From: a virus
DNA length: 46,733 nucleotides
IMG/VR virus record: IMGVR_UViG_3300050035_000070
Coordinates: 1-46,733 of that record
Reading direction: 5' to 3' (one strand)
Position 1 is the stretch's first letter, and each line of letters starts with the position of its first letter. The position numbers were made by a program, and so were the translations under genes. The notes under the pieces are model-generated. The model was not told the DNA's origin and searched no databases. It saw only the letters and a list, made by a program, of their open reading frames with translations. Positions 1,726-41,949 of this stretch are shown here, piece by piece.

Positions 1726-3252
1726 GTGGCGACACAGCAGATAGACATTGCCAAGCTATTAAACTTTCAGCCGAAGCAATGGGAGGCCTACTGGGAGACG
1801 TTCCGGGTTAAGTACCTGTTGTATGGTGGGGCTGCTGGTGGTGGTAAGTCCTATCTGTTGCGTTGGGCACCTGTTGGGCGCTTGCTTGACTGGGCGGTAC
1901 GCTTCCCTAAGCTACGTGGCATCAAGTGTATGATTGCTTGCGAGGATTATGTCACGTTAAAAGACAGGCAACTGGACTCAATCGAGTCTGAGTTCCCTTC
2001 CTGGCTTGGCGATTACCACAAATCTGACCGTGAGTACGTGCTTAAACCGCAGTATGGTGGTGGGCGTCTCTGTTTTCGCAACCTAGAAGACCCGCAGAAG
2101 TACGCTTCTAGCCAGTGGGCATATGTCGGCATCGACGAAGCCCTTCTGAACGACGAAATGGTCTTCAAAAAACTACGTGCTCGTCTACGTTGGGTACAAA
2201 AAGACCCGAATACTGGCGACGTCAACGCCCTTCCGACCGACGAGTGCATTATGCTGCTCGGTTCCAACCCTGTTGGTAAGGGGATTGGTTGGGGAAAGCG
2301 CCGTTTTATCGACAGAGTCTACGATGACATCAACGATGACCCCAAAGCGTATGGATTCGTACAGTCATTCGTCTCTGACAACAAGTATTTAGACGCGCAG
2401 TACGCGAAGGACTTGGATATGTTGGACGAAGACGAACGCAAAGCCCTGAAAGAGGGGTCATGGGACAGTTTTACTGGCCAATACTTCAAGATGTGGCGTC
2501 GTGAGGCGCATGTTTGTGAACCTTTCGACATTCCGCGCCAGTGGTTGCGTTATTCCGGCATGGACTGGGGCGTAACTGACCCTGCCGCGCAGGTTTGGGC
2601 GGCACGTTCGCCATATGGCCACCTCTTTGTCTACAAAGAACTCTACGAAGCTGGCATATCGGCGCAACACTGGGCTGACTTGGTACGTGGCATGGCACAG
2701 CCTGGCGAGCGCGTAGTCAAGTCGATGGCTGACACCAACATATTCATCAAAGAGGGCACATCGGGTAATACGCGCGTAGAGCAACTGTCGATTGGTGATC
2801 AGCTAGCGAAGGCGGGACTGCGATATATGCCTGCCTCGAAGAGTCGTAAGCCTGGATGGGCGATCATGAAAGAATGGATGACGGTGTACGACGACTACCC
2901 AATGGACTTCCTTACCGGCGTGAAAGATACCTCTAAACCGATGGTTCCCTCTAGTCGCATTCACTGGTTCTCTTCTTGTTATGAGAGCATACGTACCATC
3001 CCCAACCAGGTATATGACAAGAATGACAAGGAAGACATGGAGACAAAGGGAGTCGAAGACCACTTACCTGATGGTCATAGGTATATGTTAGTTTCCCTAC
3101 CGCCTCCGCCAAAGATCGGTTCGGAAACAATGAGAGAGTCCGCGAAGGAGCCAGAGAACACCAGTATCTTTACTGATCCTGTGCAGCGTGCCATCGAGGG
3201 ACTTGCGCCATTGGCGACGACTGCGGACGAGGATTACTCGACGGGATGGTAA
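1726..3252 (+). CDS. terL: Terminase large subunit (packaging ATPase/nuclease)
   Basis: Motor protein that translocates DNA into the prohead and cuts it. The ATPase half shows Walker A GGAAGGGKS (34-42), Walker B VGIDEA (134-139) with its catalytic Glu, and the coupling motif LLGSNP (177-182). The nuclease half shows the acidic triad of the RNase H-like fold: GMDWG (Asp280), MADTN (Asp336) and a C-terminal DHLPDGHRY segment (445-453). Length (508 aa) is typical. The start is GTG at 1726. It follows the small subunit by 3 bp and precedes the head genes. All key motifs are intact. Confidence 0.96.
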   Translation: MATQQIDIAKLLNFQPKQWEAYWETFRVKYLLYGGAAGGGKSYLLRWAPVGRLLDWAVRFPKLRGIKCMIACEDYVTLKDRQLDSIESEFPSWLGDYHKSDREYVLKPQYGGGRLCFRNLEDPQKYASSQWAYVGIDEALLNDEMVFKKLRARLRWVQKDPNTGDVNALPTDECIMLLGSNPVGKGIGWGKRRFIDRVYDDINDDPKAYGFVQSFVSDNKYLDAQYAKDLDMLDEDERKALKEGSWDSFTGQYFKMWRREAHVCEPFDIPRQWLRYSGMDWGVTDPAAQVWAARSPYGHLFVYKELYEAGISAQHWADLVRGMAQPGERVVKSMADTNIFIKEGTSGNTRVEQLSIGDQLAKAGLRYMPASKSRKPGWAIMKEWMTVYDDYPMDFLTGVKDTSKPMVPSSRIHWFSSCYESIRTIPNQVYDKNDKEDMETKGVEDHLPDGHRYMLVSLPPPPKIGSETMRESAKEPENTSIFTDPVQRAIEGLAPLATTADEDYSTGW

Positions 3253-4710: not shown

Positions 4711-5322
4711 ATGGTAGAGGCACTACCTGGTAAAGTACTGCTTCACCCGGTAATACCCCCGAAGGAAGAATCCGACGGGGGCATCGCCTTATTGTCAGAC
4801 ACGGCAAAGCGGTCGTTCGCTGGTGTTGGTACGGAACACATGACCGGGGACAGGTACTTGTACAACCAGTGGGCAGCGTGCGAGATGGATGATGGACTTG
4901 TTGTCTCGCGAAAGAGTGACCTAATTGCAATAAGCCCGTGGGCTAGTTCCGGTTGCGATTTCTTTCCAATCAATGGCTACGTCAAATTGCGTGCACTACC
5001 ACTGGCGGCTCCCGCGACGAAGGCAGGCATCCTTCTCACGGAGAGGTATCGTGGGCAGGTCAATGGCGGAGTTGAGCCTTGGACTCGGCAACTTATTCAA
5101 TGTGGTCTGGCGCGCGTCGAGGCTGTAGCTTACGATGCGGAGGTAGAGTACGAGCAGGGTGACTGGCTACTGTTCGGTTACTATAAGGCGCACTACTATG
5201 TTCTCGGTGGCATCGAGTACATCTTCGTAAGGGGTGGCCATCCTCAGGTGGCGCTCTGCGTAATGTCCAAAGACTTTGTACTGCAAACATTTGGGGAGAA
5301 CTGCTTTGGCGATAAATCCTGA
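4711..5322 (+). CDS. Tandem GroES-like co-chaperonin protein
   Basis: Reads as two GroES folds in one 203-aa chain. Domain 1 (about 3-77) opens with KVLLHPVIPPKEESDGGIAL, then TAKRSFAGVG, and closes with VVSRKSDLIAI. This is the GroES order of first strand, mobile loop with its GGI-V-L-type tripeptide (23-27 here), AK-S-GxV segment, and an SDILAI-like final strand. Domain 2 (about 88-185) has VKLRALPLAA, a loop with AGILLTERYRG (105-115), then ARVEAVAYDAEVEYEQGDWL and EYIFVRGGHPQVALCV, matching GroES KVGDIVIF and final-strand segments. GroES itself is about 97 aa and single-domain. Phage co-chaperonins such as T4 gp31 help host GroEL fold the capsid protein; location just before the portal fits. 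An assembly or decoration protein that merely resembles GroES is the alternative. Confidence 0.7.
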   Translation: MVEALPGKVLLHPVIPPKEESDGGIALLSDTAKRSFAGVGTEHMTGDRYLYNQWAACEMDDGLVVSRKSDLIAISPWASSGCDFFPINGYVKLRALPLAAPATKAGILLTERYRGQVNGGVEPWTRQLIQCGLARVEAVAYDAEVEYEQGDWLLFGYYKAHYYVLGGIEYIFVRGGHPQVALCVMSKDFVLQTFGENCFGDKS

Positions 5323-7414
5323 TCCCGTCAGTGGGAGCAACTTAATTGCGCCCCTCAACCCGACATCCGGGGCAGTGATGGACGGCAGCTTTTACGGCAA
5401 TAAAAAATCCGAGTGTATGCAACTGCCGCCAGAGATAGTTCCACAGACTATACAAAGATTATATATAGACTTAACACAGTGTGGTGGGTGCACATTTGCT
5501 GGCGAGGGTGACCGCAAGCGAAAGATGGATCGTGTCAAAAAAGGGCGCGAGATGTACAATCCGCGTCGGAAACGGCGCAACAAGCCGTGGCCTAACGCCT
5601 CTGACTGCACATTGCCAGTCATCAAATACACTACAAACCGTTTGATCGCCCAGCGTAAGGGCACCCTCTTTAGCGAACACCCGTTCTTCAATGTCACCGG
5701 CTCTACGCTGGAAGACGAGAAGTACGTAGAGAACGTACAGCGATTCCTAGAGGGGCTGGTCACAGAGGTATTTTCTCTAGAGGAAGAGTACGATCCTATT
5801 GCGTTGGCAGACTTACGGGACTCCGTGGCTCCGGTTAAGATCGAGTGGGAGCAGCGCGTCAAGATGGTGCGGAAACGCACGTCACAGTTTAACGGAGAGA
5901 AGTTCGTCTGGAAAACAGAAGTGCAACCCCAGGTTGTAAAAGATCAACCGACTGTTAAGTACATACCTATTGACCGCTTTGGGGTGTTCCCGGTGACGGC
6001 TATGAACGCGCAGGACGCGACTGGCGTATTCTGTATCATGCCGTGGAATGGGTCGGACTTGCTAGAGTTCCGTGACCAGGGGTTGATAGATGGTGATGCT
6101 CTGGCTTACATGCAAAATTACTACCTGCTGGCACAGTCACAGACCTTGGCAGCGTCTACCGTGAAGCAGGAGATCACCTTCAACCTTGAGCCAATAAATA
6201 CCTTTCATGCCCGTATCTATGACATACATGTACTATACTGGCAGATTCCTATCGACAAGGATAAGCCAGCAGAAGACTGGTTGATATGGTATCACTGGCC
6301 GAGCCGTACTATCCTACGTGCCGTACCTAACCCATACTGGGATCAGCGCCGACCCTTCGAGATCAGCACCCCTTTTCCCGACACGGAAGGAATCTATGGC
6401 GACTCCATTCCTGATCTTATTGGTGAGATGGCTGATACCATGGATACGTTCCTACGAATGGCGATTGACCAGTCGGCTATTGAGATTCATCCGCCGTTGG
6501 CTGTAGATGTAAATCAACTGAAGAACCCAGATGATGTGGACAACGGACTCCTGGTCTATGGGCCTGGTAACTTATGGCAACTCAATTCTGTTGACGCTGT
6601 CAAGCCAATTATGATGCCTTCGCGTGTACAGGTTGGCACCAGTCTAATAGAGTTCTGTCGTTCGTATGTCGAGCGCATGTCTGGTGTCTCTGATAATGCG
6701 ATGGGTATGCAGGTCAACCATTCGCAGACGGCTACTGAAACGCAGTCGCTTGCCAGTAATGCGTCCATGCTTTTCTCGCTTATCATTGACCGTGACCGTA
6801 GGTTCCTGACCAAGGTGGCCAATCAGTTACTTCTGCTGTGTTACGAATACGCAGGGAATCCTACCGTCCAGGACTTGTGGACGCGCCTGGTAGGTAACGA
6901 AGAGTGCCCATTCACCAGCGCCAATGACGCGCTAGGAGGGCGCTATCACTTCACTTGTAGCGGAAGTACAGAGAACGCGAACAAAGAGTTAAAGCGCGCC
7001 CTAATGCAGCAGATATTCGCGGCATTAATGCAGACCCAGTTAATCCAGAGTGACCCACTGAAGCAATATTCGTTGGCTAAGGTCTACCTAAAAACCATGG
7101 GGCTTCGTGTCCCGGAGGAGATAATCGGCGCGGAGCAGGAGATTCGCCAGGCGCTAGCGTCACAGGCACAGGCAAAGATGGGTCTACTAGACCACGAACA
7201 GCAGGTAGCGGCGGCGCAGCACGGGCAGGCGGCACAGGCGAACGCGCAGTCGCAAGTCCAACCCACGGTGGCGGACGCTATGCAACACATGATGATGGGA
7301 GGTGGAGATGGCTCGCAAGGCAGCGGAGATGCAAATGGAGGAGATGCTGGAGACGCCAGCAGCCAGGGAGCAACTAATACCGTACCTGGTGGGACAGATG
7401 GCAATGGTCAGTAA
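5306..7414 (+). CDS. Portal protein
   Basis: Forms the dodecameric channel at the capsid vertex through which DNA enters and leaves. Assigned from size (702 aa), position after the terminase and before the scaffold, and composition. There is a basic N-terminal segment (GEGDRKRKMDRVKKGREMY), a long alpha/beta core with DMHP-free but portal-like helical stem around the MSGVSDNAMGMQ segment (about 465-480), and a Gln/Ala-rich C-terminal barrel-like tail followed by a low-complexity Gly/Asp/Gln end. No ATG is well placed; TTG at 5306 has GGGGAG seven bases upstream and overlaps the end of the GroES-like gene. The ATG at 5378 is a shorter alternative. Confidence 0.85.
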   Translation: MAINPDPVSGSNLIAPLNPTSGAVMDGSFYGNKKSECMQLPPEIVPQTIQRLYIDLTQCGGCTFAGEGDRKRKMDRVKKGREMYNPRRKRRNKPWPNASDCTLPVIKYTTNRLIAQRKGTLFSEHPFFNVTGSTLEDEKYVENVQRFLEGLVTEVFSLEEEYDPIALADLRDSVAPVKIEWEQRVKMVRKRTSQFNGEKFVWKTEVQPQVVKDQPTVKYIPIDRFGVFPVTAMNAQDATGVFCIMPWNGSDLLEFRDQGLIDGDALAYMQNYYLLAQSQTLAASTVKQEITFNLEPINTFHARIYDIHVLYWQIPIDKDKPAEDWLIWYHWPSRTILRAVPNPYWDQRRPFEISTPFPDTEGIYGDSIPDLIGEMADTMDTFLRMAIDQSAIEIHPPLAVDVNQLKNPDDVDNGLLVYGPGNLWQLNSVDAVKPIMMPSRVQVGTSLIEFCRSYVERMSGVSDNAMGMQVNHSQTATETQSLASNASMLFSLIIDRDRRFLTKVANQLLLLCYEYAGNPTVQDLWTRLVGNEECPFTSANDALGGRYHFTCSGSTENANKELKRALMQQIFAALMQTQLIQSDPLKQYSLAKVYLKTMGLRVPEEIIGAEQEIRQALASQAQAKMGLLDHEQQVAAAQHGQAAQANAQSQVQPTVADAMQHMMMGGGDGSQGSGDANGGDAGDASSQGATNTVPGGTDGNGQ

Positions 7415-7559
7415 GCAGGTATTACTGGCTAAGAGTTGGGACGAAACACTGAGGTTGCAGGGGCAACACAAGGCGTACCTCGACATGGTACGTTATTTAC
7501 AATCGGCAAGTGGAGGTATAGTAAATGGGAAACGAACCAGTAATAGCGACGACGAGTGA
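7308..7559 (+). CDS. Small overlapping hypothetical protein, 83 aa
   Basis: Overlaps the portal gene by 107 bp and the scaffold gene by 35 bp, each in another frame. The ATG at 7308 has GGGAGG about five bases upstream. The product (starting MARKAAEMQMEEML, with LIPYLVGQMAMVSKQVLLAK) is compact, helical and Met/Leu-rich, with a polar tail. A small gene squeezed between portal and scaffold is common in podoviruses and may act in prohead assembly. The sequence of the non-overlapped half looks protein-like rather than accidental. Function unknown. Confidence 0.6.
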   Translation: MARKAAEMQMEEMLETPAAREQLIPYLVGQMAMVSKQVLLAKSWDETLRLQGQHKAYLDMVRYLQSASGGIVNGKRTSNSDDE

Positions 7560-8442
7560 ACCGACTCGGGCAGAAGTCGATGATATTGTCGGGTTGTTTG
7601 AACGAACAGCCGGTATGACGGACGCGGAAAAGGTTGCGTACTTAGAGGCAAAGGAAAACCCTACACCGGCCTCCGTTCCTGTGGTGGATGGCACCGTACC
7701 TGCCGAGGGCACGCCCGGTGCAGTGACTATTACGATGACTGGCGATACTGCTCCAACAACCGCAGGAGAGCCAACGAGTCCCGTGGTCGTAGACCCGGTG
7801 GCGGCTATGAAGGCGGAGATGGAGGCGTTACGGGCTGAGATACAGGCAATGAAAGCGCCTGAGGTAGCTCCGGTGGTGCCGGTTGCTCCCTATTCGGAGG
7901 CTGCGTTAGAGGCGGCTGCGGCGCAATACGGTGTCGATGTAAATGTCTTGCGGGCTACGGCGGCACTGGGTTTACAGGCACAAGCAGCGATGGCACCGGA
8001 TGAACCCTATCTGGCGATGACTACTCAGCTTATCGCAGCTGATGCGACACTGACCGGCAAGGTCACGGCAGAAGATGTTGCTACCCTATTCAAGGAGAAC
8101 GGCGTAACCAAGGAGCAATGGGTAGCAGCTGATGATGAGACACGACGAGCAGCTATCGAGAACGGAATCGATCGGGCATTGGCAAAGAATGTACGGGCAG
8201 GTAAATTAACCATTCCCCTCCCGGCACAGACGCGCGCCAATACAGAGGCAATACCAGCCGTGTCTCCAGCAGGTATCAGTACTCCGCAACAAGGTGTTGC
8301 CTCACAAGCGGAAGACGAAATCTCGCGGCAGTCACTGGCTTATCGCACTATCTCCCAACGGCAAGTACGCGATTGGGGAATGACCCCGCAGCAGGCGGAT
8401 GAGTTCACACTAAAATTCCTGAAGGAGCACCCTGACTTATGA
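7525..8442 (+). CDS. Putative scaffolding protein
   Basis: Expected to organise capsid assembly and leave the head before packaging. The 305-aa product has an acidic, Pro/Thr/Val-rich disordered N-terminal half, a coiled-coil-prone stretch (PVAAMKAEMEALRAEIQAMK, about 92-111), a helical middle part and a helical C-terminus with basic residues (SQRQVRDWGMTPQQADEFTL and following). Low-complexity acidic/helical composition, absence of Cys, and position between portal and capsid are typical of phage scaffolds, which share little sequence. GGAGG lies 8 bases before the ATG. Confidence 0.75.
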   Translation: MGNEPVIATTSEPTRAEVDDIVGLFERTAGMTDAEKVAYLEAKENPTPASVPVVDGTVPAEGTPGAVTITMTGDTAPTTAGEPTSPVVVDPVAAMKAEMEALRAEIQAMKAPEVAPVVPVAPYSEAALEAAAAQYGVDVNVLRATAALGLQAQAAMAPDEPYLAMTTQLIAADATLTGKVTAEDVATLFKENGVTKEQWVAADDETRRAAIENGIDRALAKNVRAGKLTIPLPAQTRANTEAIPAVSPAGISTPQQGVASQAEDEISRQSLAYRTISQRQVRDWGMTPQQADEFTLKFLKEHPDL

Positions 8443-9614: not shown

Positions 9615-10544
9615 ATGCCAACCGGAACAATGGTTAGTAACAACCTTAATATTGAACTATTCAAAACGAACTTGCGCGAAGCGTGGGGGCTGGAGCAGAA
9701 AGAGTATCCAGTCATGTATACTGAAGCATTTCACACCGAGACTAGCCGCAAGAAGTTCGAAGAGACCTTGTCGATGGTGGGGATTGGCCCGTTCCAGACC
9801 AAGCAAGAAATGGGAAAGGTTCCCATGCAGAACATAATGTCAGGTTGGCTGACGCGCTTTACCCATGTGCGCTACGCCTCCGGCATGTCCTTCTCGCATG
9901 AGTTGCAGCAAGACGAACTGTATGGCCAGGTAAAATCGTCGATGAAGTTGTTCAGTCGCTCCGAGAGAATCACCCGCGAACTGCTCGGTTCGGCCTTCTT
10001 TAATTCGGCTTTCACGGGAACGTGGAATGCGAATGACGTAGTGAATTCTACAGCGCAGCCCTTCTGTAGCAATACTCACAAACTCATTGGCAACAGTGCC
10101 ATCTACGGAGCCAATCGACCGCCGACCGATATGGACATATCTCCTACAGCCTTGGCGATCCACAATACCCTCATCCGGCGCACTGTCGATAACAAGGGCA
10201 TTCAGACATTCTACCAGGGCAGTGAGCTTTGGCACCCACCTGAAATGGAGTGGGAAGTGGCGGAACTCCTACGATCCACTGACCGCCCGGATACTGCCAA
10301 CCGCGCTACCAATGTCTTCAAGGGCATGTATGGTGGTAAGGTTTGGAACTTCCTCACCAATCCCTATGCGTGGTTTGTGAAGTGTACTGAACACCGTGCG
10401 ACATGGTACGACCGTGAACCGCTGGAAACCAAAGACGAAGAGATTCCTCAGACCATGGGGGATGTCTGGTTTGGTGCAGCGTTCCGTTCATCTTGTGGGG
10501 CGGACGACTGGCGTGGATGGGTTGGTACTTCACCCACCAGCTAG
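9615..10544 (+). CDS. Major capsid protein
   Basis: Likely HK97-fold shell protein, 309 aa. It has the strong AAAGGAGG start signal expected of an abundant protein. The N-terminus (VSNNLNIELFKTNLREAWGL) and the E-loop/spine-helix-like region are followed by RITRELLGSAFFNSAF (about 118-133), a pattern common in capsid proteins of this group. The C-terminal part holds GGKVWNFLTNPYAWFVKC and a Trp-rich end. It sits between scaffold and collagen-like genes, has its own promoter upstream, and is followed by a 13-bp terminator-like hairpin. Assignment rests on size, signature and context. Confidence 0.85.
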   Translation: MPTGTMVSNNLNIELFKTNLREAWGLEQKEYPVMYTEAFHTETSRKKFEETLSMVGIGPFQTKQEMGKVPMQNIMSGWLTRFTHVRYASGMSFSHELQQDELYGQVKSSMKLFSRSERITRELLGSAFFNSAFTGTWNANDVVNSTAQPFCSNTHKLIGNSAIYGANRPPTDMDISPTALAIHNTLIRRTVDNKGIQTFYQGSELWHPPEMEWEVAELLRSTDRPDTANRATNVFKGMYGGKVWNFLTNPYAWFVKCTEHRATWYDREPLETKDEEIPQTMGDVWFGAAFRSSCGADDWRGWVGTSPTS

Positions 10545-10621: not shown

Positions 10622-11068
10622 ATGACTGGAACATACCTAAACTATGCGTCGATAATATTCTCGGTAGTGCTAGGGTTGACGGGTATACTGTTATTTGGCT
10701 GGATGAAACTACTCAAGGGTACTAACAAACTATTGATCGATCAGAACCTTGAACTTAGGGCACTGGTTGTTGATATGCAGGGCAAGATAGATGTTAGCGC
10801 CGAGAAGATTTGCTCTATGCAAGGGCAAATAGATATATTAAAAAATGTGCCTCTGGGCAATATCGACAAGTCACTTGCGTGCCTCTTATCAGAGATGAAG
10901 AAGAGTACCGTACAGAACGCCCAAACCCTTAAGCTAATGCAGGGGTCAGCAAAGACACTCGCGGAGCATACTGCTATAATCGGTTCACATGTCGCCGAAG
11001 TAAGGGACGAACTGGCGCGCCATCGTGAAGAAGAGTCTTCACAGAAGAAAGAAAGCGTGGGGGTGTAG
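10622..11068 (+). CDS. Membrane-anchored coiled-coil protein, 148 aa
   Basis: One hydrophobic N-terminal segment (about 8-29: YASIIFSVVLGLTGILLFGW) is followed by about 110 residues of heptad-like helix rich in Leu, Ile, Lys and Glu, and a charged tail (RDELARHREEE). No signal-peptidase or lipobox motif is seen. It lies between the capsid and the first collagen-like gene, 1 bp from the latter. The fold resembles phage membrane-tethered stalk or spanin-like proteins, but the position is not that of a spanin. It may act in virion morphogenesis at the membrane or be a fibre component. Function unknown. Confidence 0.65.
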   Translation: MTGTYLNYASIIFSVVLGLTGILLFGWMKLLKGTNKLLIDQNLELRALVVDMQGKIDVSAEKICSMQGQIDILKNVPLGNIDKSLACLLSEMKKSTVQNAQTLKLMQGSAKTLAEHTAIIGSHVAEVRDELARHREEESSQKKESVGV

Positions 11069-11069
11069 C

Positions 11070-11951
11070 ATGGGAGCAAGGCTATCTTGGAAGGGCGAAG
11101 TGGGTGAACCTGGTACACCAGGCATACAGGGTCTCCCTGGCAGTGACGGTATAGATGGCCGTGATGGTATAGATGGCAAGGACGGCAAGGACGGATTACC
11201 AGGTCGTGATGGCGTGGATGGCAAGGACGGCAAGGACGGATTACCAGGTCGTGATGGCGTGAATGGCAAGGACGGCAAGGACGGATTACCAGGTCGTGAT
11301 GGCGTGAATGGCCTCGATGGTCTCCTGGGTAGAGACGGAAACGAAGGAGTCCAGGGGAAGCAGGGTGAGCCAGGTCGTGATGGTGTAGACGGACAGCCTG
11401 GACGCGACGGGCAACCTGGACGTGATGGAGAGCGCGGAGAAGTGGGGCCTGCTGGTCGCGACGGGCAACCTGGACGTGATGGAGAGCGCGGAGAAGTGGG
11501 GCCTGCTGGTCGCGACGGACTGGATGGCAAACCAGGAGCCGATGGCGCAGACGGTCACGATGGCAAGGACGGATTGCCCGGGAAGGATGGAGCGAATGGT
11601 GCCGATGGATTGCCTGGGGGAGACGGTGTAGATGGTCTCGATGGACACCCCGGGGCGCAAGGCATTCCTGGGATCAACGGGAAAGACGGTGAGCAAGGCC
11701 CTCCTGGAGAGTCGTTACGTGGTGACATTGGCCCGAAAGGTGACCCCGGGCAAAAGGGAGAAAAAGGCGATACTGGCCCGATTGGGCCAGCCGGAGCAGA
11801 TGCTCCTCCCGCACGTCCTGGGCCACGAGGTGAACCTGGCAGGGGGCTACCAGAAGGTGTATCGATAAGCGCTAATGATTCGGGAATCACCATTACTGTT
11901 ATCCAATCAGATGGTACTGTTTCCAGTGCTACTCTTTCGTTCTCTAAGTAG
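11070..11951 (+). CDS. Collagen-like fibre protein 1
   Basis: Residues about 12-255 are almost uninterrupted Gly-X-Y triplets rich in Asp, Lys, Arg and Pro (for example GRDGVDGKDGKDGLP), which should form a charged collagen-type triple helix. A short beta-patterned C-terminal cap of about 30 residues (VSISANDSGITITVIQSDG) could trimerise it. The gene contains tandem DNA repeats: a 45-bp unit three times (11175-11309) and a 54-bp unit twice (11403-11510). The ATG at 11070 is chosen because GTGGGGG precedes it; an in-frame upstream start overlaps the previous gene. Likely a head or tail surface fibre. It lacks a large binding domain, unlike its neighbour. Confidence 0.85.
   Translation: MGARLSWKGEVGEPGTPGIQGLPGSDGIDGRDGIDGKDGKDGLPGRDGVDGKDGKDGLPGRDGVNGKDGKDGLPGRDGVNGLDGLLGRDGNEGVQGKQGEPGRDGVDGQPGRDGQPGRDGERGEVGPAGRDGQPGRDGERGEVGPAGRDGLDGKPGADGADGHDGKDGLPGKDGANGADGLPGGDGVDGLDGHPGAQGIPGINGKDGEQGPPGESLRGDIGPKGDPGQKGEKGDTGPIGPAGADAPPARPGPRGEPGRGLPEGVSISANDSGITITVIQSDGTVSSATLSFSK
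11175..11309 (+). repeat. 45-bp tandem repeat, three copies
   Basis: Near-identical in-frame copies starting at 11175, 11220 and 11265, each encoding five collagen triplets. They differ by only a base or two (GTGGAT versus GTGAAT), suggesting recent expansion. Confidence 0.9.
11403..11510 (+). repeat. 54-bp tandem repeat, two copies
   Basis: Copies beginning at 11403 and 11457 are essentially identical and encode six collagen triplets each (motif GERGEVGPAG). Confidence 0.9.
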
Positions 11952-11961
11952 GAGATGGTAA

Positions 11962-13344
11962 ATGGGACTGACTTTTATTGGTCGAGGGCCAGCAGGCCCT
12001 ACTGGCCCTACCGGATTAACTGGCCCTACCGGATTAACTGGCCCTACCGGATTAACTGGCCCTGCGGGAATGGCCGGCCCTACCGGATTAACTGGCCCTG
12101 CGGGAATGGCCGGCCCTACCGGATTAACTGGCCCTACCGGATTAACTGGCCCTGCGGGAATGGCCGGGCCTACTGGCCCTACCGGATTAACTGGCCCTAC
12201 CGGATTAACTGGCCCTACCGGATTAACTGGCCCTACCGGATTAACTGGCACTACTGGCGCGGCTGGAACGAATGGCACTAACGGGACTAACGGAACGAAT
12301 GGTGCAGCTGCTGCTAATCGCACGTATGCTCTCCGTTACCCACAGGTTGGCGGAGTCCCTAACCAGTACTGGTGCGCCACTTCTGGCAACATATATGCCT
12401 TAGGCAATAACGCCCCGCAGCCCGGTTCTGCAAGTGGAATAGTGACACCTGTAGTAGCAGTATCCACTGACCTCTGCTCCTGGACATCACTGCCATTACC
12501 ATCGCTCACCACGCCAGGCGCAGGTGTAGCACAGTGCATAGCCGAGGATGGAAGCGGCAATCTGGGGATGTTATATCTCGACTCCAGCAATAATCTCTGG
12601 TTTGCATTTTACAATGGGACAGCGTGGGCATTCGACGCGGCAAAAGTGGTTACCGGTACAACGTACCCGGTAACTAGTGCAACGATGGCCTGCGACGGCT
12701 CCGGTAATTTCCATATCGCCTTTTATCAGGCAAATGCGGGGTCATCTGGTTACAGTCAATTGTGCTATGCCAAGCGCGGCGCAGGTTCTGCCGGAACATG
12801 GGGAGCTATAGCCAACCCTGGAGCAACTCCAGTGCGCGCGGCGACTGGAACAATATTTGTATTCATCGATGGGAGTGGTTACCCGAGAATATTATTCGCG
12901 AATAACAATTCCGGCACCGCTAGCTATGACGGTGTGGCGTATTGGAATGGTTCGACATGGACGGTGTCGACAAGCACGGCTATTACATTTCCAACAGCGG
13001 CAACTGCTGACCCGACGGGCAACATATACTTCCGCAACTCTACAACCTATATTGGTAAATTTTCAACCGCTAACGCCTGGTCGCAAACATGGTTATCAGC
13101 GTCAAACGTCTCTGCTCTTTGCTGTGACTCGTCTGGCAATCTGTATTATCAACTAGGTGGCACGGTTGGCGCGGTTTCACCATCAGCAATATTGATTTGG
13201 AATGGTACATCGACCGTTAATGCAAAAGTCGTTGATGGTCCTGGTGGTACAGTAGCCGATCAATGGTCATGGCAAAAACCGTTGACCCATCCTCTCGCTG
13301 TTGTCAGTACTCCGTATGATATTGGTGCCATTCAACTCGTCTAG
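11962..13344 (+). CDS. Collagen-stalk fibre with propeller-like receptor domain
   Basis: Residues about 8-115 are Gly-X-Y triplets of the neutral Pro-Thr-Gly-Leu type (GPTGLT repeated, interspersed with GPAGMA), different from the charged collagen of the previous gene. After a Gly-Thr-Asn linker the C-terminal about 340 residues contain repeated motifs with DGSGN, DSSGN or DPTGN followed by a hydrophobic strand (for example [20 protein letters not shown]). These look like blades of a sialidase/BNR- or NHL-type beta-propeller. This is a plausible adhesin: trimeric collagen stalk carrying a binding head. AGGAG precedes the ATG. Receptor unknown. Confidence 0.8.
11990..12250 (+). repeat. 18-bp tandem repeats encoding [12 protein letters not shown]
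   Basis: The unit GGCCCTACCGGATTAACT recurs about ten times, interleaved with GGCCCTGCGGGAATGGCC. Copies are nearly perfect at DNA level, so stalk length could change by slippage or recombination without shifting frame. Confidence 0.9.
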
Positions 13345-13355
13345 GAGGTAATTCG

Positions 13356-13550
13356 ATGGACTATATTAGATACAATCCGACGACTCAACAGATTGACGTA
13401 TCTTTAATACTCTCAGTGCCCGATGATGGACCTGTCACTGAAAATGCCGATTATTTACCAGCTCCAGACGGCTGGCAATGGACAGATACGCAACTGCCAC
13501 AGGTGCAAACGGCAATAGCTACCTACAATGACTCCCAGGAGGCTGATTAA
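13356..13550 (+). CDS. Small hypothetical protein, 64 aa
   Basis: AGGAGG precedes the ATG. The product starts MDYIRYNPTTQQIDVSLILS, is acidic and contains PDGWQWTDTQLPQVQTA. Small acidic genes directly after fibre genes are often fibre-assembly chaperones, and the Trp/Pro-rich region would suit that, but I recognise no specific family. The stop overlaps the next start (TAATG). Confidence 0.6.
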   Translation: MDYIRYNPTTQQIDVSLILSVPDDGPVTENADYLPAPDGWQWTDTQLPQVQTAIATYNDSQEAD

Positions 13551-14944
13551 TGGCTGATTTTTACAACGGGATCGCCGCGAATATACCGTTGCCATCCGGT
13601 TACACATCGATAGTTAGCGCCAGCCGTGACGGGGCTGATTTCACGCCGGTGGGCACCATCAGCACTACTACCGGAGGAGCGGAGTGGTGGGCGGCAACGG
13701 CGGCTGACATGACGGGGCGGGTTATCCATCTGGTGATTGCTGGTTCGGGTGTGCCTAATGCCGACCTGGTGATTACCACCGAAACGGACTACACGGGGGA
13801 GTTAGCCGGAGTGATTGCAGCCATACCCGCAGACATAGCCGCGATCCCGGGCGAGGATGGCGGAGAACTTGAATTGTCTGGAGTTGCATTAGAGTCAGAC
13901 CTACTTGCTGTCAGTGCCGGGGTACAGGCACTTCAGCGTGGTTTGCTCGGCAGCGTTTACTTGCAGGTGGCTCCTTCCGGTATCCCTGGGTCGATGATTC
14001 TTACCTTCGATACTGGCATCACCGGACTCACTGGTACGGTAGGATTTACCGTATATGACAGCAGCGGAAGTATTGTGCAGGCGCGCACTACGGGTACTGT
14101 CCCTTACCCAATCATGGAGATGCCTACAGGGTCGGGAGTATACTACTGTGTGGTTCCGTATTCGCTCGTTCTTGGCAACATTGTGGTGTGGGATACCGGG
14201 GGTGACACGCCCCTGTCGGCTTCCGAAGCCTTCCCATCCGACCTGGTGGGTTTAATCACCGGCGGGCCGAAGTCCAAGACGCTACGTGAGATAGCTAGCC
14301 AGGCGCTTAATACCTACCCCGGGTGGAATCGTGATGACGAAATGTCACCGCTACTCTACGCGGAGGATGGTTGGCGCCGGTTCGTACACATCGGCGGCAA
14401 TCTGTATACTAATACCGCCATTCTAACTACCGTGCCAGGGCAGGCCATCTACTCATTACCTGCTGATTTCCGCTTGATAACCGAGCGTAATGCTGTCGCT
14501 ATGCAGGCGACACCGCAGTATCTTACAGAGATTAGTGCGCAGGAGGCGATGTCTGATCCGAATTGGCAGAACGCCCTCGGTGTCCCGACCGCGTTCTATT
14601 TCCCAGACCCAATGCACATTGGCCTATCCCCCACACCAGCAGCGGAGGTGGCCATTACTATTCGGTACGACGCCGAAGCACCCAGTCCTATGTCGTATGA
14701 CACTCCGCTACCAGTACCTGCGCTCTATGAGCACGCATTTTTTGGCTATGCTCGCAGCCATATGGCTGAAACCATGGGGAATGACAGGTTGGCGGCGATA
14801 GAGTATAATAAATTTAAGGAATTATTGGCGACGTGGAAAGCTGGAAAACAAACCCGTATGGTTGCGCCGTCACAGGCGACACCTTACACTACTCGCCCGA
14901 ATGGGTTAGCCCGTTCGCCAGGCGGTTATGAGGAGGAGCGATAA
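13550..14944 (+). CDS. Head-tail adaptor-like protein with beta-rich N-terminal extension
   Basis: Two parts. Residues 1-235 are Gly/Thr/Val-rich beta-type sequence, possibly Ig-like or fibre-like (for example VGFTVYDSSGSIVQA). Residues about 240-440 resemble podovirus head-tail adaptor proteins. There is a helical start (LREIASQALNTYPGW), a strand ending in a YSLPADF motif, and a C-terminal pair of helices (HAFFGYARSHMAETMGNDRL, AIEYNKFKELLATWKAG) typical of adaptor/connector rings. The next gene has the same plan without the N-terminal extension. Overlaps both neighbours by one base (TAATG). Function inferred from pattern and place before the nozzle. Confidence 0.6.
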   Translation: MADFYNGIAANIPLPSGYTSIVSASRDGADFTPVGTISTTTGGAEWWAATAADMTGRVIHLVIAGSGVPNADLVITTETDYTGELAGVIAAIPADIAAIPGEDGGELELSGVALESDLLAVSAGVQALQRGLLGSVYLQVAPSGIPGSMILTFDTGITGLTGTVGFTVYDSSGSIVQARTTGTVPYPIMEMPTGSGVYYCVVPYSLVLGNIVVWDTGGDTPLSASEAFPSDLVGLITGGPKSKTLREIASQALNTYPGWNRDDEMSPLLYAEDGWRRFVHIGGNLYTNTAILTTVPGQAIYSLPADFRLITERNAVAMQATPQYLTEISAQEAMSDPNWQNALGVPTAFYFPDPMHIGLSPTPAAEVAITIRYDAEAPSPMSYDTPLPVPALYEHAFFGYARSHMAETMGNDRLAAIEYNKFKELLATWKAGKQTRMVAPSQATPYTTRPNGLARSPGGYEEER

Positions 14945-15741
14945 TGCAATTAGTAGATTTACGCACCGCCGTCCTGCGAGACGTGGCGGAAAACATGGTT
15001 GGCGCGAATGATCGTGTCACCCCTAACATCGTTGATGGCGTCATTCGCGAAGGTTACGAAGTAGTAGCCGCTGAAACCAAGTGTTTTGAGCGTTCGTTTA
15101 GCACGTCATATGCCGCACAAACGACAGGTATACCTCCGTTAATCCCGTTGCCCGCCGACATCATAGAGTTGCGTGCAGGCTGGTTGGGAACCGGAACACT
15201 ATTGGCACGCGGCCCGATCAAGCAATTGAATGCGGACAACTCGAACTGGCGTAATGCTGTCGGTTCTGCTGCGAATCCGTCAAAGTGGTTGTCGCTTTAC
15301 GACATGCGTAATGCTGTTGTTTCGCCACCACTCTACACGGCGACCACTGTTACGATTGAGGCGGCCTGTATACCGATTGGTCTGGGGTGTTATATCCCGG
15401 CATTCGGTACTTACAGTACTCCTCTACAGTTCACGTCAGTCCTGGCCGTGACGCCCGCTGCGCAGGTAACTGCCTTTGTCGCTGCGGGTGGTGTACTGAC
15501 GCTTTATAACGATACAGATATTCCGGTGTTCGCGCCGAAATATCACAAAATTCTCGCGCATTATGCCGTGATGGAATTATCCAAGGGTTTCCTTATGGCC
15601 GGGGATGTTGCGGTGAATCGTTACCAGGGCGCGAAGGCATCTTACGAGGCGATGCTCGCACAGATGATTCGTGAGTACGACAGTGGCATGGGGCTAAATC
15701 AGACGATGGCTCCGCCAATGCAGCAGCAACAGCAGGGGTAA
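14944..15741 (+). CDS. Head-tail adaptor-like protein, 265 aa
   Basis: Starts with a helix (LVDLRTAVLRDVAENMVGAN), followed by a strand region ending in PLPADIIELRAG. C-terminal helices containing YHKILAHYAVMELSKGFLMA and RYQGAKASYEAMLAQMIREY complete the layout of ring-forming adaptor or connector proteins between portal and tail nozzle. It ends in a Gln-rich tail encoded by CAG/CAA repeats. It appears to be a distant paralogue of the preceding gene's C-terminal half. Translation start overlaps the previous stop. Confidence 0.65.
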   Translation: MQLVDLRTAVLRDVAENMVGANDRVTPNIVDGVIREGYEVVAAETKCFERSFSTSYAAQTTGIPPLIPLPADIIELRAGWLGTGTLLARGPIKQLNADNSNWRNAVGSAANPSKWLSLYDMRNAVVSPPLYTATTVTIEAACIPIGLGCYIPAFGTYSTPLQFTSVLAVTPAAQVTAFVAAGGVLTLYNDTDIPVFAPKYHKILAHYAVMELSKGFLMAGDVAVNRYQGAKASYEAMLAQMIREYDSGMGLNQTMAPPMQQQQQG

Positions 15742-19581: not shown

Positions 19582-22380
19582 ATGGCTATATGCCCAACTC
19601 CTACAATTACAGCTACCCTTGACGGCCAGGGGGGATGGTATGTCACTATTGACTGTCCCGGCGCTGCGTATGTCCATTACTGGACTAACAGCAATCCTGA
19701 GATAATAACGGGCTCGCCCAGCTTTACTATCGATGTTCAGGCTCCGTCTGTTATTGTCAGCGCATGGGCACTCAATCCGTTCACAGGATTAACCATGAGC
19801 GCGACGGCAGTTGTCTCGTTCCCTATACCGCCGCCAACGCAAGTAGCAACCCCAACCTTTGTCCCTGTTGCTGGTTATTATTCATCACCAAAATATGTGG
19901 AAATTTTATGTGCTACACCTGATGCAGCGATAATCTATACCATAGACGGAACTACTCCTAGCGAGACTAACGGTTATAGGTATGACGGATTTTATGTTGT
20001 GGTCTCGAGTTCCACGAACTTGCAAGCTATCGCCTGTTATACAGGAATGATTGATAGTGCCGTAGCAAGTGCTCAGTATAATTTTTGGACGCCCCCACCT
20101 GAGTTATATGACACTCTTGATGGAGGCATATTTTCGTCCAATTATCTTATTCAGTTAATCGATGCCAATAGTCTGGCGACCATAATTTATACGCTTGATG
20201 GGTCTGCTCCGACTCATTCTGGGTCAACGGTAACTAACGGATTTATCTATACGAGTAGTGGTATATGGCTTAATACTCCGCAGGTGGATACCTTCGTCCA
20301 TGCTATGGCATTTTTCGGGACTGACCCTGAGAGTGTAAGGGTTGCATTTGGGCCGTTTACGATTGGTGCCACTACAAGTACAACTGCAACCCCGACACTA
20401 AGCCCGCCTCCTGGTACGTACCCTATCAATACTATCATTACTATAAGTGACTCCACTCCAGGAGCGTTTGGTTTGTTTACTCTAGATGGTGATTTACCAT
20501 CGTTCGATGGCGGTAATATTGGTAGTGATATTGGTAGTGGTAATGGTTCGATGTTTTATAACTTCCCCGTTAATGTTGACATTGGGACTACTCCGGGGAC
20601 GGTAGAGCTTAGGGTGATCGCTGGTGTTCTGGGATCAAATCCTAGTCCAGACGCTAGTGGTGCATACACATTATTCGAGGTGTGCGCTACACCGGTATTA
20701 AACCCACCACCTGGGACATATAGCAGTACACAAACAGTAGCCATTGGATGTGCCAAACTTGGCGCGACGATACGGTATACCACAGATGGTAGTACACCGT
20801 CAGAAACGAACGGGACAATCTATACTGATGTTGTATCAGTGCCACTTGGAACTGTACTACGCGCTATTGCATATCTACCTGGGCTGATTGACAGTCCTGT
20901 TGTTGGTGGGCTGTACGCCAATAGCATATTACAGTGCGCTACTCCCACATTCTCTCCAGCAGCAGGGACGTTTACCTCTACGCAGCAAGTAACCATAACG
21001 AGCGCGACGGCGGGCGCATCAATAGTGTTTACCATTGATGGCACCTTCCCGAATGACAGTGTCAATCCGTTCATATGGAACGGGACATTGTACACTTCTC
21101 CTGTTAATGTTGGGCAATCACTCACCATAAAAGCTGTTGCGTACAAGGACGGGATGACGGACAGCGCAATGGCCAGCGCAACTTATGTAATTAATTATGA
21201 TCCAGGCCCGGGGCCAGCCGACTCTCCGTGGCCAATGATAGGTCATGATGCTCAACGTACACGGTGCAGCCAGTATTCCGGGTTTACCAAACCTCCGATG
21301 ATAAAGTGGAAGTATGCTGGCAGTTTTAATAGTGAGTTCGAACCTGTGATTGGTACAGACGGAACGATCTATGTCACGGATGGCAGTCTACTAGCAGTTA
21401 ATCCAGACGGCACACTGAAGTGGACTTACACCAATTCTCTATTCACGATTAATTGTACACCGGCACTAGCTTCCGATGGCACTATCTACGTTATCGATGC
21501 GCGCGGCTACTTGATTGCGATTAATGCTGACGGCACCCTGAAGTGGTCACTACAAGTAATGCCAGGTATCACCTGTATAACTGTAACATCTCCAATCATT
21601 GCACCTGATGGCACCGTCTATATCATAGTACTACCTAATTCCTATCAATCTCCTTGCTATATGCTGGCTATCCATTACGATGGTACGGTTAAGTGGAACA
21701 GGATTCTGAGTGGTTACATCTCTGGAATGGATATTTATCATGTGGCAAACACTGGTCAGGGGCCATCACTGGATGCTTCAGGCAATATCTATACTGCTCA
21801 GGAGTTCTGGGGTGCTGGTTACACAAACTATTATGCCGAGATTTATAACCCGGACGGCACCCTCAACTCTTCCTACGAATCTCCAGCAGCCTTCAGTATC
21901 CAGCAAAACTATGACGGGTGTGTCGGGCAGGGCGGTATGCTTTTTATTGCCGGTCTCGTAGTGCCTAACCCGAATGATCTATCGCACTGGTTATACCTTG
22001 ATGGTGGCGACACGTCCGCTCCTGCTCTAGCGGCTGATGGTTCTATTTACTACGGCACCTATTATGGGCCACAGGCGAATAAGGCTGACGGATCAACGGC
22101 TTGGGTACAGAACAACTGGGGGTCTACGTCTACCCCCACTGTTGACCATCAAGGGAATGTGTTTTTTGGCAGTACCTATTACCTTATGTGGGCATACGAT
22201 CACTTTGAAAATACCTGGTGGAATTTTGATTGCGATGGACAGACCGAAACGTCAATCCCAACTATAGGAACGGACGGAACTATCTATGTTACCGGAGAAG
22301 GTTATCTTTATGCGCTTGCCGCATCTCCTACTCCTCCTGCAATTCCTGCCGTCATTTGGCATCGCTCTACAATCTTTTAA
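19582..22380 (+). CDS. Fibre with chitobiase-like repeats and PQQ-type propeller
   Basis: Starts with an Ig-like region (1-85). About five copies follow of the chitobiase/beta-hexosaminidase C-terminal-like module (roughly 88-540), each with ATPTFSPAAGTF- or PPPGTY-type openings and an IxYTxDGSTPSETNG-type core. From about 545 the protein switches to a PQQ-like propeller: SPWPMIGHDAQRTRCS, then blades with DGTIYVTDGSLLAVNPDGTL, NADGTLKWSL, DASGNIYTAQEFWGAG and GTDGTIYVTGEGYLYALA. No catalytic motif is expected in these domains; both are structural or carbohydrate-associated. I infer a receptor-binding tail fibre built from bacterial-type surface modules. Cys are scattered. It is followed by an extended -10 promoter. 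Confidence 0.8.
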   Translation: MAICPTPTITATLDGQGGWYVTIDCPGAAYVHYWTNSNPEIITGSPSFTIDVQAPSVIVSAWALNPFTGLTMSATAVVSFPIPPPTQVATPTFVPVAGYYSSPKYVEILCATPDAAIIYTIDGTTPSETNGYRYDGFYVVVSSSTNLQAIACYTGMIDSAVASAQYNFWTPPPELYDTLDGGIFSSNYLIQLIDANSLATIIYTLDGSAPTHSGSTVTNGFIYTSSGIWLNTPQVDTFVHAMAFFGTDPESVRVAFGPFTIGATTSTTATPTLSPPPGTYPINTIITISDSTPGAFGLFTLDGDLPSFDGGNIGSDIGSGNGSMFYNFPVNVDIGTTPGTVELRVIAGVLGSNPSPDASGAYTLFEVCATPVLNPPPGTYSSTQTVAIGCAKLGATIRYTTDGSTPSETNGTIYTDVVSVPLGTVLRAIAYLPGLIDSPVVGGLYANSILQCATPTFSPAAGTFTSTQQVTITSATAGASIVFTIDGTFPNDSVNPFIWNGTLYTSPVNVGQSLTIKAVAYKDGMTDSAMASATYVINYDPGPGPADSPWPMIGHDAQRTRCSQYSGFTKPPMIKWKYAGSFNSEFEPVIGTDGTIYVTDGSLLAVNPDGTLKWTYTNSLFTINCTPALASDGTIYVIDARGYLIAINADGTLKWSLQVMPGITCITVTSPIIAPDGTVYIIVLPNSYQSPCYMLAIHYDGTVKWNRILSGYISGMDIYHVANTGQGPSLDASGNIYTAQEFWGAGYTNYYAEIYNPDGTLNSSYESPAAFSIQQNYDGCVGQGGMLFIAGLVVPNPNDLSHWLYLDGGDTSAPALAADGSIYYGTYYGPQANKADGSTAWVQNNWGSTSTPTVDHQGNVFFGSTYYLMWAYDHFENTWWNFDCDGQTETSIPTIGTDGTIYVTGEGYLYALAASPTPPAIPAVIWHRSTIF

Positions 22381-41161: not shown

Positions 41162-41449
41162 TTATTTGGGTGCCGTATATATGGCAATACAAGCAATGAC
41201 TATTGTTAAGATATATACGACCACTAGCAAGAATATACAGAACCATGCTTGTCTATTCTCGCGGCGTAGTTCATTACGTACTGCTATAGCATGTTTTACG
41301 CCTCGCTCACGGTTCATCCGATGGCAAGCAAGCGTAGCAGCTACCAGCATTCGTCTCTTCTCCAGGTCAGGGAAACCTAGGACACCTAGCGACTTTGAAC
41401 TAACACTACATACTATTTCCGCCTCGCGGAGTGCCTCATCTATGGACAT
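41162..41449 (-). CDS. C-terminal membrane-anchored hypothetical protein, 95 aa
   Basis: The start at ATG 41449 (MSIDEALREAEIVCSV) has GGGAGG about 7 bases upstream and overlaps the end of the phosphatase gene. Residues 1-65 are helical and charged (RRMLVAATLACHRMNRERG). A single hydrophobic segment near the C-terminus (FCIFLLVVVYILTIVIACIA) anchors it with a short tail outside. A tail-anchored small protein may target a phage or host activity to the membrane. Family not recognised. It ends 4 bp from the next promoter. Confidence 0.6.
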   Translation of the reverse strand: MSIDEALREAEIVCSVSSKSLGVLGFPDLEKRRMLVAATLACHRMNRERGVKHAIAVRNELRRENRQAWFCIFLLVVVYILTIVIACIAIYTAPK

Positions 41450-41949
41450 ATCAATGCCTCCCAGTATTGACTGAGCCACTGGTCTACACCAGGGCCAGGT
41501 AGAAAGTCAGGATATGTTTTAGTAAAAACAGTCTTTGCTTGTTCATATGACAATGCACCGTAAACATCCGTACATCTACGCATAAATGCCAATAACAACC
41601 CGGGGCCTCTGCTGTGACCCTGGTTGCAGACAAACATGAGTTTGCGACAGTTACTATAATGGTAAAGTGCAAAGGCTAAAGCATCGAATACCATTGAGTC
41701 TGGTATCCACTCAGCCGACTTCCCATCCAACATGTTAAGCACAATCCGTTCGGGGTCATGACGGAGTGCCGTCAGGTACTCCGGGTTGTCTTTCGGGCAA
41801 CCACGTCCAGTCCATCCAACCTCCTTACGGTGATATGGATCACGGGCGGCGATGATGCACGCCCAGTCACCCAAGGTATCGTGGCGCGTCAGCAGGGCTT
41901 CGTAGTCCTCCGTCGTGCCGACATAAACGTCTTGATACACTTCTTTCAT
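41440..41949 (-). CDS. Dual-specificity phosphatase-like protein
   Basis: 169 aa with the CX5R P-loop of Cys-based phosphatases: FVCNQGHSRGPG, Cys108 and Arg114 intact. Upstream, DVYVGTTEDYEALL resembles the opening of dual-specificity phosphatases, and ERIVLNMLDGK supplies the general-acid loop (Asp75 candidate). An N-terminal AARDPYHRKEVGWTGRGCPK region is shared with a family of phage phosphatase-like proteins as I recall them. Substrate unknown: phosphoprotein, phosphoinositide-like or RNA/nucleotide are all possible. The ribosome binding site is weak (AAAGGAAA 12 bases away). Confidence 0.75.
   Translation of the reverse strand: MKEVYQDVYVGTTEDYEALLTRHDTLGDWACIIAARDPYHRKEVGWTGRGCPKDNPEYLTALRHDPERIVLNMLDGKSAEWIPDSMVFDALAFALYHYSNCRKLMFVCNQGHSRGPGLLLAFMRRCTDVYGALSYEQAKTVFTKTYPDFLPGPGVDQWLSQYWEALICP

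Follow-up and report, generated by a model that had tools for sequence, protein, structure and literature searches.

Co-chaperonins of the GroES type are already known from phages as single genes, in the roofless form of T4 gp31 and as two separate genes in a jumbo phage, and the tandem form is known as the Cpn20 of plastids. T4 gp31 folds the capsid protein gp23, is without a roof and has longer loops (PMC6318259). The jumbo phage vB_PcaM_CBB carries two GroES-like genes, CBB_131 and CBB_268 (PMC5259590), and GroES is one of the 13 core genes reported for phages of the HTVC023P type (PMC9599517). The Cpn20 of plant and algal/apicomplexan organelles keeps a mobile loop and a roof in both of its domains (PMC3542282). 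Both Cpn20 and GroES concatemers of six to eight domains work with GroEL (PMC5780408), and the modes found to be workable include tetramers with an unused domain, six-domain concatemers with an empty site, and mixed Cpn10/Cpn20 rings (PMC5780408; PMC3542282). A search of the open-access literature turned up no phage or bacterium for which a tandem GroES gene had been described; descriptions of the tandem form there come only from plastids and apicoplasts.

Here we describe a 203-aa open reading frame (ORF) in the IMG/VR virus record IMGVR_UViG_3300050035_000070, which was analysed over its whole length of 46,733 nucleotides (hereafter the window). The protein is likely to be a divergent phage co-chaperonin in which a single chain carries a tandem pair of GroES-like domains. 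It resembles Cpn20 (Cpn21, chloroplast/apicoplast) at the sequence level in having two Cpn10-like domains head to tail; Cpn20, however, has a roof in both domains, whereas half 1 of the 203-aa protein appears roofless and its gene is in a phage. Jumbo phage vB_PcaM_CBB likewise has two GroES-like units in one phage, but as separate ORFs rather than as one chain. By alignment, the apparently roofless half 1 and the putative long mobile loop of half 2 are reminiscent of T4 gp31, yet gp31 is a single domain with no close sequence similarity to the protein described here and is accompanied by unrelated head genes. The record shares its capsid lineage and head gene block with phages HTVC023P and CRP-901 and with Planktothrix and Caulobacter RW-type phages, whose GroES has one domain (107–176 aa) and is encoded between portal and capsid, whereas the record has two domains encoded upstream of the portal.

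A two-part ORF in the head module

The genes of the head module follow the order terminase, three small genes, double GroES-like gene, portal, small ORF, probable scaffold, two small genes and capsid (Table 1). No Cpn60/GroEL is encoded in the 46.7-kb record, so the double GroES-like protein would use the GroEL of the host.

Table 1. Head genes of the record and parts of the double GroES-like gene, in window coordinates.
Feature	Position	Strand	Evidence
Terminase large subunit	1726..3252	+	phrog_2, E=2e-29
Double GroES-like gene, 203 aa	4711..5322	+	open, coding; 22.0 bits to combined GroES profile, in two stretches
Half 1, residues 1–75, GroES-like, roofless, shortened	4711..4935	+	in-order GroES profile matches
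Half 1 putative mobile loop, residues 15–34, GGIAL	4753..4812	+	alignment to GroES loops
Linker between halves, residues 76–87	4936..4971	+	alignment limits; inference
Half 2, residues 88–186, GroES-like domain	4972..5268	+	PHROG and NCBIfam matches, strands, PDB list
Half 2 putative long mobile loop, residues 97–127, AGILL	4999..5091	+	alignments to head-lineage GroES
Portal gene, probably starting at a point downstream of 5276	5276..7414	+	SU10_portal, E=1e-26; phrog_1216, E=3e-28
Probable scaffold	7525..8442	+	inferred from placement after the portal and before the capsid, matching relatives
Major capsid protein, presumably the main client	9615..10544	+	24–33% identity to annotated capsid proteins by tblastn and blastp

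The ORF is real and coding. Its frame is open and reads through as described in an earlier note made from the DNA letters, and the two loop tripeptides which that note had placed in one 203-aa ORF are present, within GGIAL at residues 23–27 and AGILL at residues 105–109. The codon usage of both halves is like that of the genome's other genes, in this frame only. The ATG lies 2 nt past the stop of the preceding ORF, and its ribosome site is weak; ahead of half 2, neither a suitable internal start nor a suitable ribosome site was found, and a single two-part chain is therefore to be expected. Since the gene comes from a single metagenomic record, its two parts could in principle be neighbouring genes that were fused by a sequencing or assembly error, but the continuous frame, the evenness of codon usage across both halves and the missing start and ribosome site for half 2 make such an artefact scarcely credible.

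GroES matches to both halves

The Pfam model PF00166 (Cpn10), with which the earlier note had proposed to search each half, gave no hit at all to the 203-aa protein; the protein is thus filed as a divergent tandem relative and not as a classical Cpn10. Within PHROGs, the sole family that matched the whole protein was the co-chaperonin GroES (phrog_3188; residues 102–174, E=0.004). All four NCBIfam matches were to GroES models, with no other family represented: two fell on half 2 (residues 102–159, E=0.019, and residues 103–174) and two on half 1 (residues 42–74, the C-terminal end of GroES). When half 1 was searched alone its best NCBIfam GroES match had an E-value of 0.011, and no GroES match was obtained from PHROG or Pfam. 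The single tblastn match to phages at E≤10 was the chaperonin 10 of the jumbo Vibrio phage 2.275.O, with 42% identity over residues 1–33 of half 1 (E=2); half 2 gave no tblastn match to phages, and phmmer against PDB sequences gave none either. Short exact peptides revealed no direct relatives in IMG/VR, whether for the 203-aa protein or for the terminase, the portal or the capsid.

Profiles were also built from GroES sequences; several were tried, and the exact significance of their scores should therefore not be overread. With the broadest of them, a combined profile of head-lineage, bacterial and jumbo-phage GroES, GroES homology was recognisable in the 203-aa protein and both halves scored above all shuffles: the whole protein reached 22.0 bits (peak of 50,000 shuffles, 10.8), half 1 reached 15.2 bits (highest of 50,000 shuffles, 12.4) and half 2 reached 10.9 bits (highest of 50,000 shuffles, 8.8). 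This profile matched the protein twice, with an E-value of 5e-5 among 9,670 phage ORFs drawn from this record and from loci related to it; the best of the other ORFs outside GroES scored 6.5, and the 203-aa protein was the only unclassified ORF that stood out. A profile of 12 phage GroES sequences gave 18.9 bits for the whole protein, compared with a maximum of 11.9 in 20,000 shuffles, and narrower ones yielded 8–16 bits. Across the narrower profiles (12-sequence, head lineage, bacterial, jumbo), whole-protein scores ranged from 8 to 19 bits, and single halves placed anywhere from the top few to roughly the tenth to few tens of 50,000 shuffles.

Residues 2–35 of half 1 match the N-terminal part of the GroES profile and residues 42–74 the C-terminal part, in co-linear order, and the gene start falls at the normal GroES start. 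Judged by these profile matches, both halves are very probably GroES-derived, although strongly diverged. It could be argued instead that half 1 is an unrelated short N-terminal domain with a chance GGI motif, in line with its lack of a PHROG or Pfam GroES match of its own and with its poor structure model (see below). We regard this as quite improbable, as none of the 50,000 shuffles reached its combined-profile score and as the two matches lie in order at both ends of the profile, beginning where a GroES gene would. The earlier proposal is partly supported: its central claim, that a single phage gene of the head module holds two segments derived from GroES, is supported by the profile matches to both halves and by the synteny of the head module; the absence of a match for either half had been named as grounds for abandoning it, and matches, albeit weak, were found for both. 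Half 1 scored alike with bacterial and head-lineage GroES models (a jumbo-phage model was also compared), and the scores thus do not separate a fusion with a host gene from a tandem duplication.

Anatomy and models of the two halves

Read by alignment to GroES, half 1 begins with GKVLLHPV as strand 1, followed by IPPKEESDGGIALLSDTAKR as the loop, SFAGVGTEHMT as a shortened stretch of the second strand, GDRYLYNQ as the GD turn with strand 3, and WAACEMDDGLVVSRKSDLIAIS as the final strands. Its C-terminal strand motif, SRKSDLIAIS, resembles MRESDILAIV of a bacterial GroES. The distance from the loop motif to the next GD turn is 24 residues, compared with medians of 36–42 in three GroES groups, which suggests that the roof region is missing. 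Half 2 (residues 88–186) aligns over its full length with head-lineage GroES, and its loop is longer by ∼7–8 residues in these alignments. The tripeptides IAL (residues 25–27) and ILL (residues 107–109) both align with the GroES mobile loop. The GroES order that the earlier note had reported for both segments is therefore present in each, but half 1 is shortened and lacks the roof/second-strand region.

This shortening raises the question of whether half 2 alone works as a co-chaperonin domain, with half 1 being a decayed GroES copy in the role of an N-terminal extension or spacer. About 12–18 residues of the second-strand/roof region are missing from half 1, its model is poor, and N-terminal extensions of about 40 aa are common in the single-domain GroES of the lineage. 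Half 1 has nonetheless kept its loop tripeptide, GD turn and C-terminal strand motif, and in its codon usage it looks like a maintained gene; we thus feel that decay is unlikely and favor two GroES-like domains.

For structure prediction, AlphaFold was supplied with 29 relatives aligned over half 2 only, leaving half 1 without an alignment, and no structure emerged for half 1 in this run. The model of half 2 had a GroES-type strand order at a pLDDT of about 70, with strands at residues 82–95, 129–136, 152–156, 160–165, 168–174 and 180–184; as it derives from a GroES alignment, this agreement is not independent. Foldseek placed Cpn10/GroES chains in the first 18 positions for this model (E from 0.006 upward, TM 0.2–0.4). 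Nearly all of the first 14 VIA matches were also Cpn10/GroES (Z 3.4–4.9) and T4 gp31 (1g31) was among the VIA matches, the best of the Cpn10/GroES matches having Z 3.8–4.9; all of these are results for an alignment-driven model. The half 2 model is supportive in that it is in line with the GroES fold, but it is biased by its alignment. When half 1 was modelled alone with eight relatives, the pLDDT was 45 and there was no GroES among the matches, a model too poor to count. Of the two GroES folds that had been claimed, the predictions support GroES-like strands in half 2 only, at low TM, the model of half 1 being too poor to judge.

The capsid lineage and its GroES gene

The capsid identities of 24–33% (Table 1) connect the record to a large group that includes Roseobacter phage CRP-901, Pelagibacter phages HTVC023P and HTVC027P, and phages of Planktothrix and Caulobacter. 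An annotated GroES, always of one domain, lies between portal and capsid in 11 of the 11 capsid relatives examined, with the portal assigned from its position in those whose portal is unnamed. The survey of loci L016–L168 and L170–L214 covered viral loci and loci in bacterial genome bins, and the IMG/VR loci counted were those with at least 3 kb of sequence upstream of the capsid. One GroES of 115–176 aa was found in 82 of the 83 such loci with a lineage capsid, ending at a near-fixed distance of 2.0–2.3 kb ahead of the capsid gene, and none of the 83 had a tandem GroES. Most of the capsid-lineage loci in bacterial genome bins also carry a head-module GroES. In this record, a GroES-like gene is again found in the head block together with a lineage capsid gene; relative to the lineage, it is doubled and has shifted to the upstream side of the portal. 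The searches turned up no further genome with the tandem form, so that it is known from one genome.

The tight linkage with portal and capsid genes across the lineage might also be expected of a structural head protein built on a GroES barrel (e.g. a portal-proximal or cement protein) rather than a chaperone. The single-domain relatives, however, pass the Pfam Cpn10 cut-off and keep the KTKGGI loop, and no publication was found that describes phage GroES as part of the virion; a structural role is thus very improbable, and the co-chaperonin reading is retained.

One locus, L157, has a similar capsid and no detectable GroES. It is a genuine exception, and the capsid type is therefore not strictly dependent on a phage-encoded GroES. 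By blastp, the portal of L157 alone resembles that of the record (21%). Within the same locus (L157:507–8900), the large terminase ORF (774 aa) seems to hold an intein-like insertion. Loci L186 and L204 were rejected as further examples without GroES; their upstream regions are unlike or masked and they look like bin chimeras. A two-stretch match in L213 proved to be a single GroES of 111 aa. Terminase relatives (Arthrobacter and Acinetobacter phages) were discarded as an anchor for gene context, being misleading with no GroES in the fetched stretches, and the capsid was informative.

A possible two-domain lid

By analogy with gp31 or chloroplast Cpn20, the best reading of the 203-aa protein is a co-chaperonin that would serve the folding of head proteins. 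It would replace host GroES as a ring or partial ring capping host GroEL, which it may bind through one or both of the hydrophobic tripeptides, IAL and ILL. The roofless half 1 and the long loop of half 2 could make the chamber larger or more open, in the manner of T4 gp31. The proteins folded within would be head proteins, of which the major capsid protein is the likeliest, much as gp23 is folded with the help of gp31. Because the number of sites, seven, is odd, two-domain chains would have to work like plastid Cpn20: the options would be a tetramer that leaves one of its domains idle, a set of three chains in which one site stays empty, or three chains completed by one host GroES. We tentatively put forward, as a possible but rather doubtful extension, that the protein is a phage ‘Cpn20’ whose even domain number forces asymmetric capping or completion by one host GroES, yielding a mixed phage-host lid for capsid folding that arose independently of plastids.

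Phage co-chaperonins reveal how far the GroES lid can change and yet work, and a tandem phage lid would bear on why some capsids bring their own. As the tandem form has, in the literature searched, been described only from plastids and apicoplasts, a phage example would provide an independent test of a two-domain lid on a seven-fold ring. Furthermore, the near-universal presence of GroES at a fixed place allows a direct test of the idea that this capsid requires a co-chaperonin of its own.

Other features of the window

Downstream of the capsid gene, two adjacent genes (11025–11951 and 11962–13344, +) encode collagen-like repeat proteins, the first of which matches Pfam Collagen (E=4e-40). Two neighbouring genes at 13550–15741 (+) both have matches to the SU10 adaptor family and may represent a duplicated adaptor. 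The 932-aa product of 19582–22380 (+) combines four chitobiase/Fn3-associated repeats with a PQQ-type beta-propeller stretch, which is unusual for a phage tail region. Lastly, a 169-aa protein encoded at 41440–41949 (−), with no Pfam match, contains the motif CNQGHSR (CX5R), which is like a protein-phosphatase signature.
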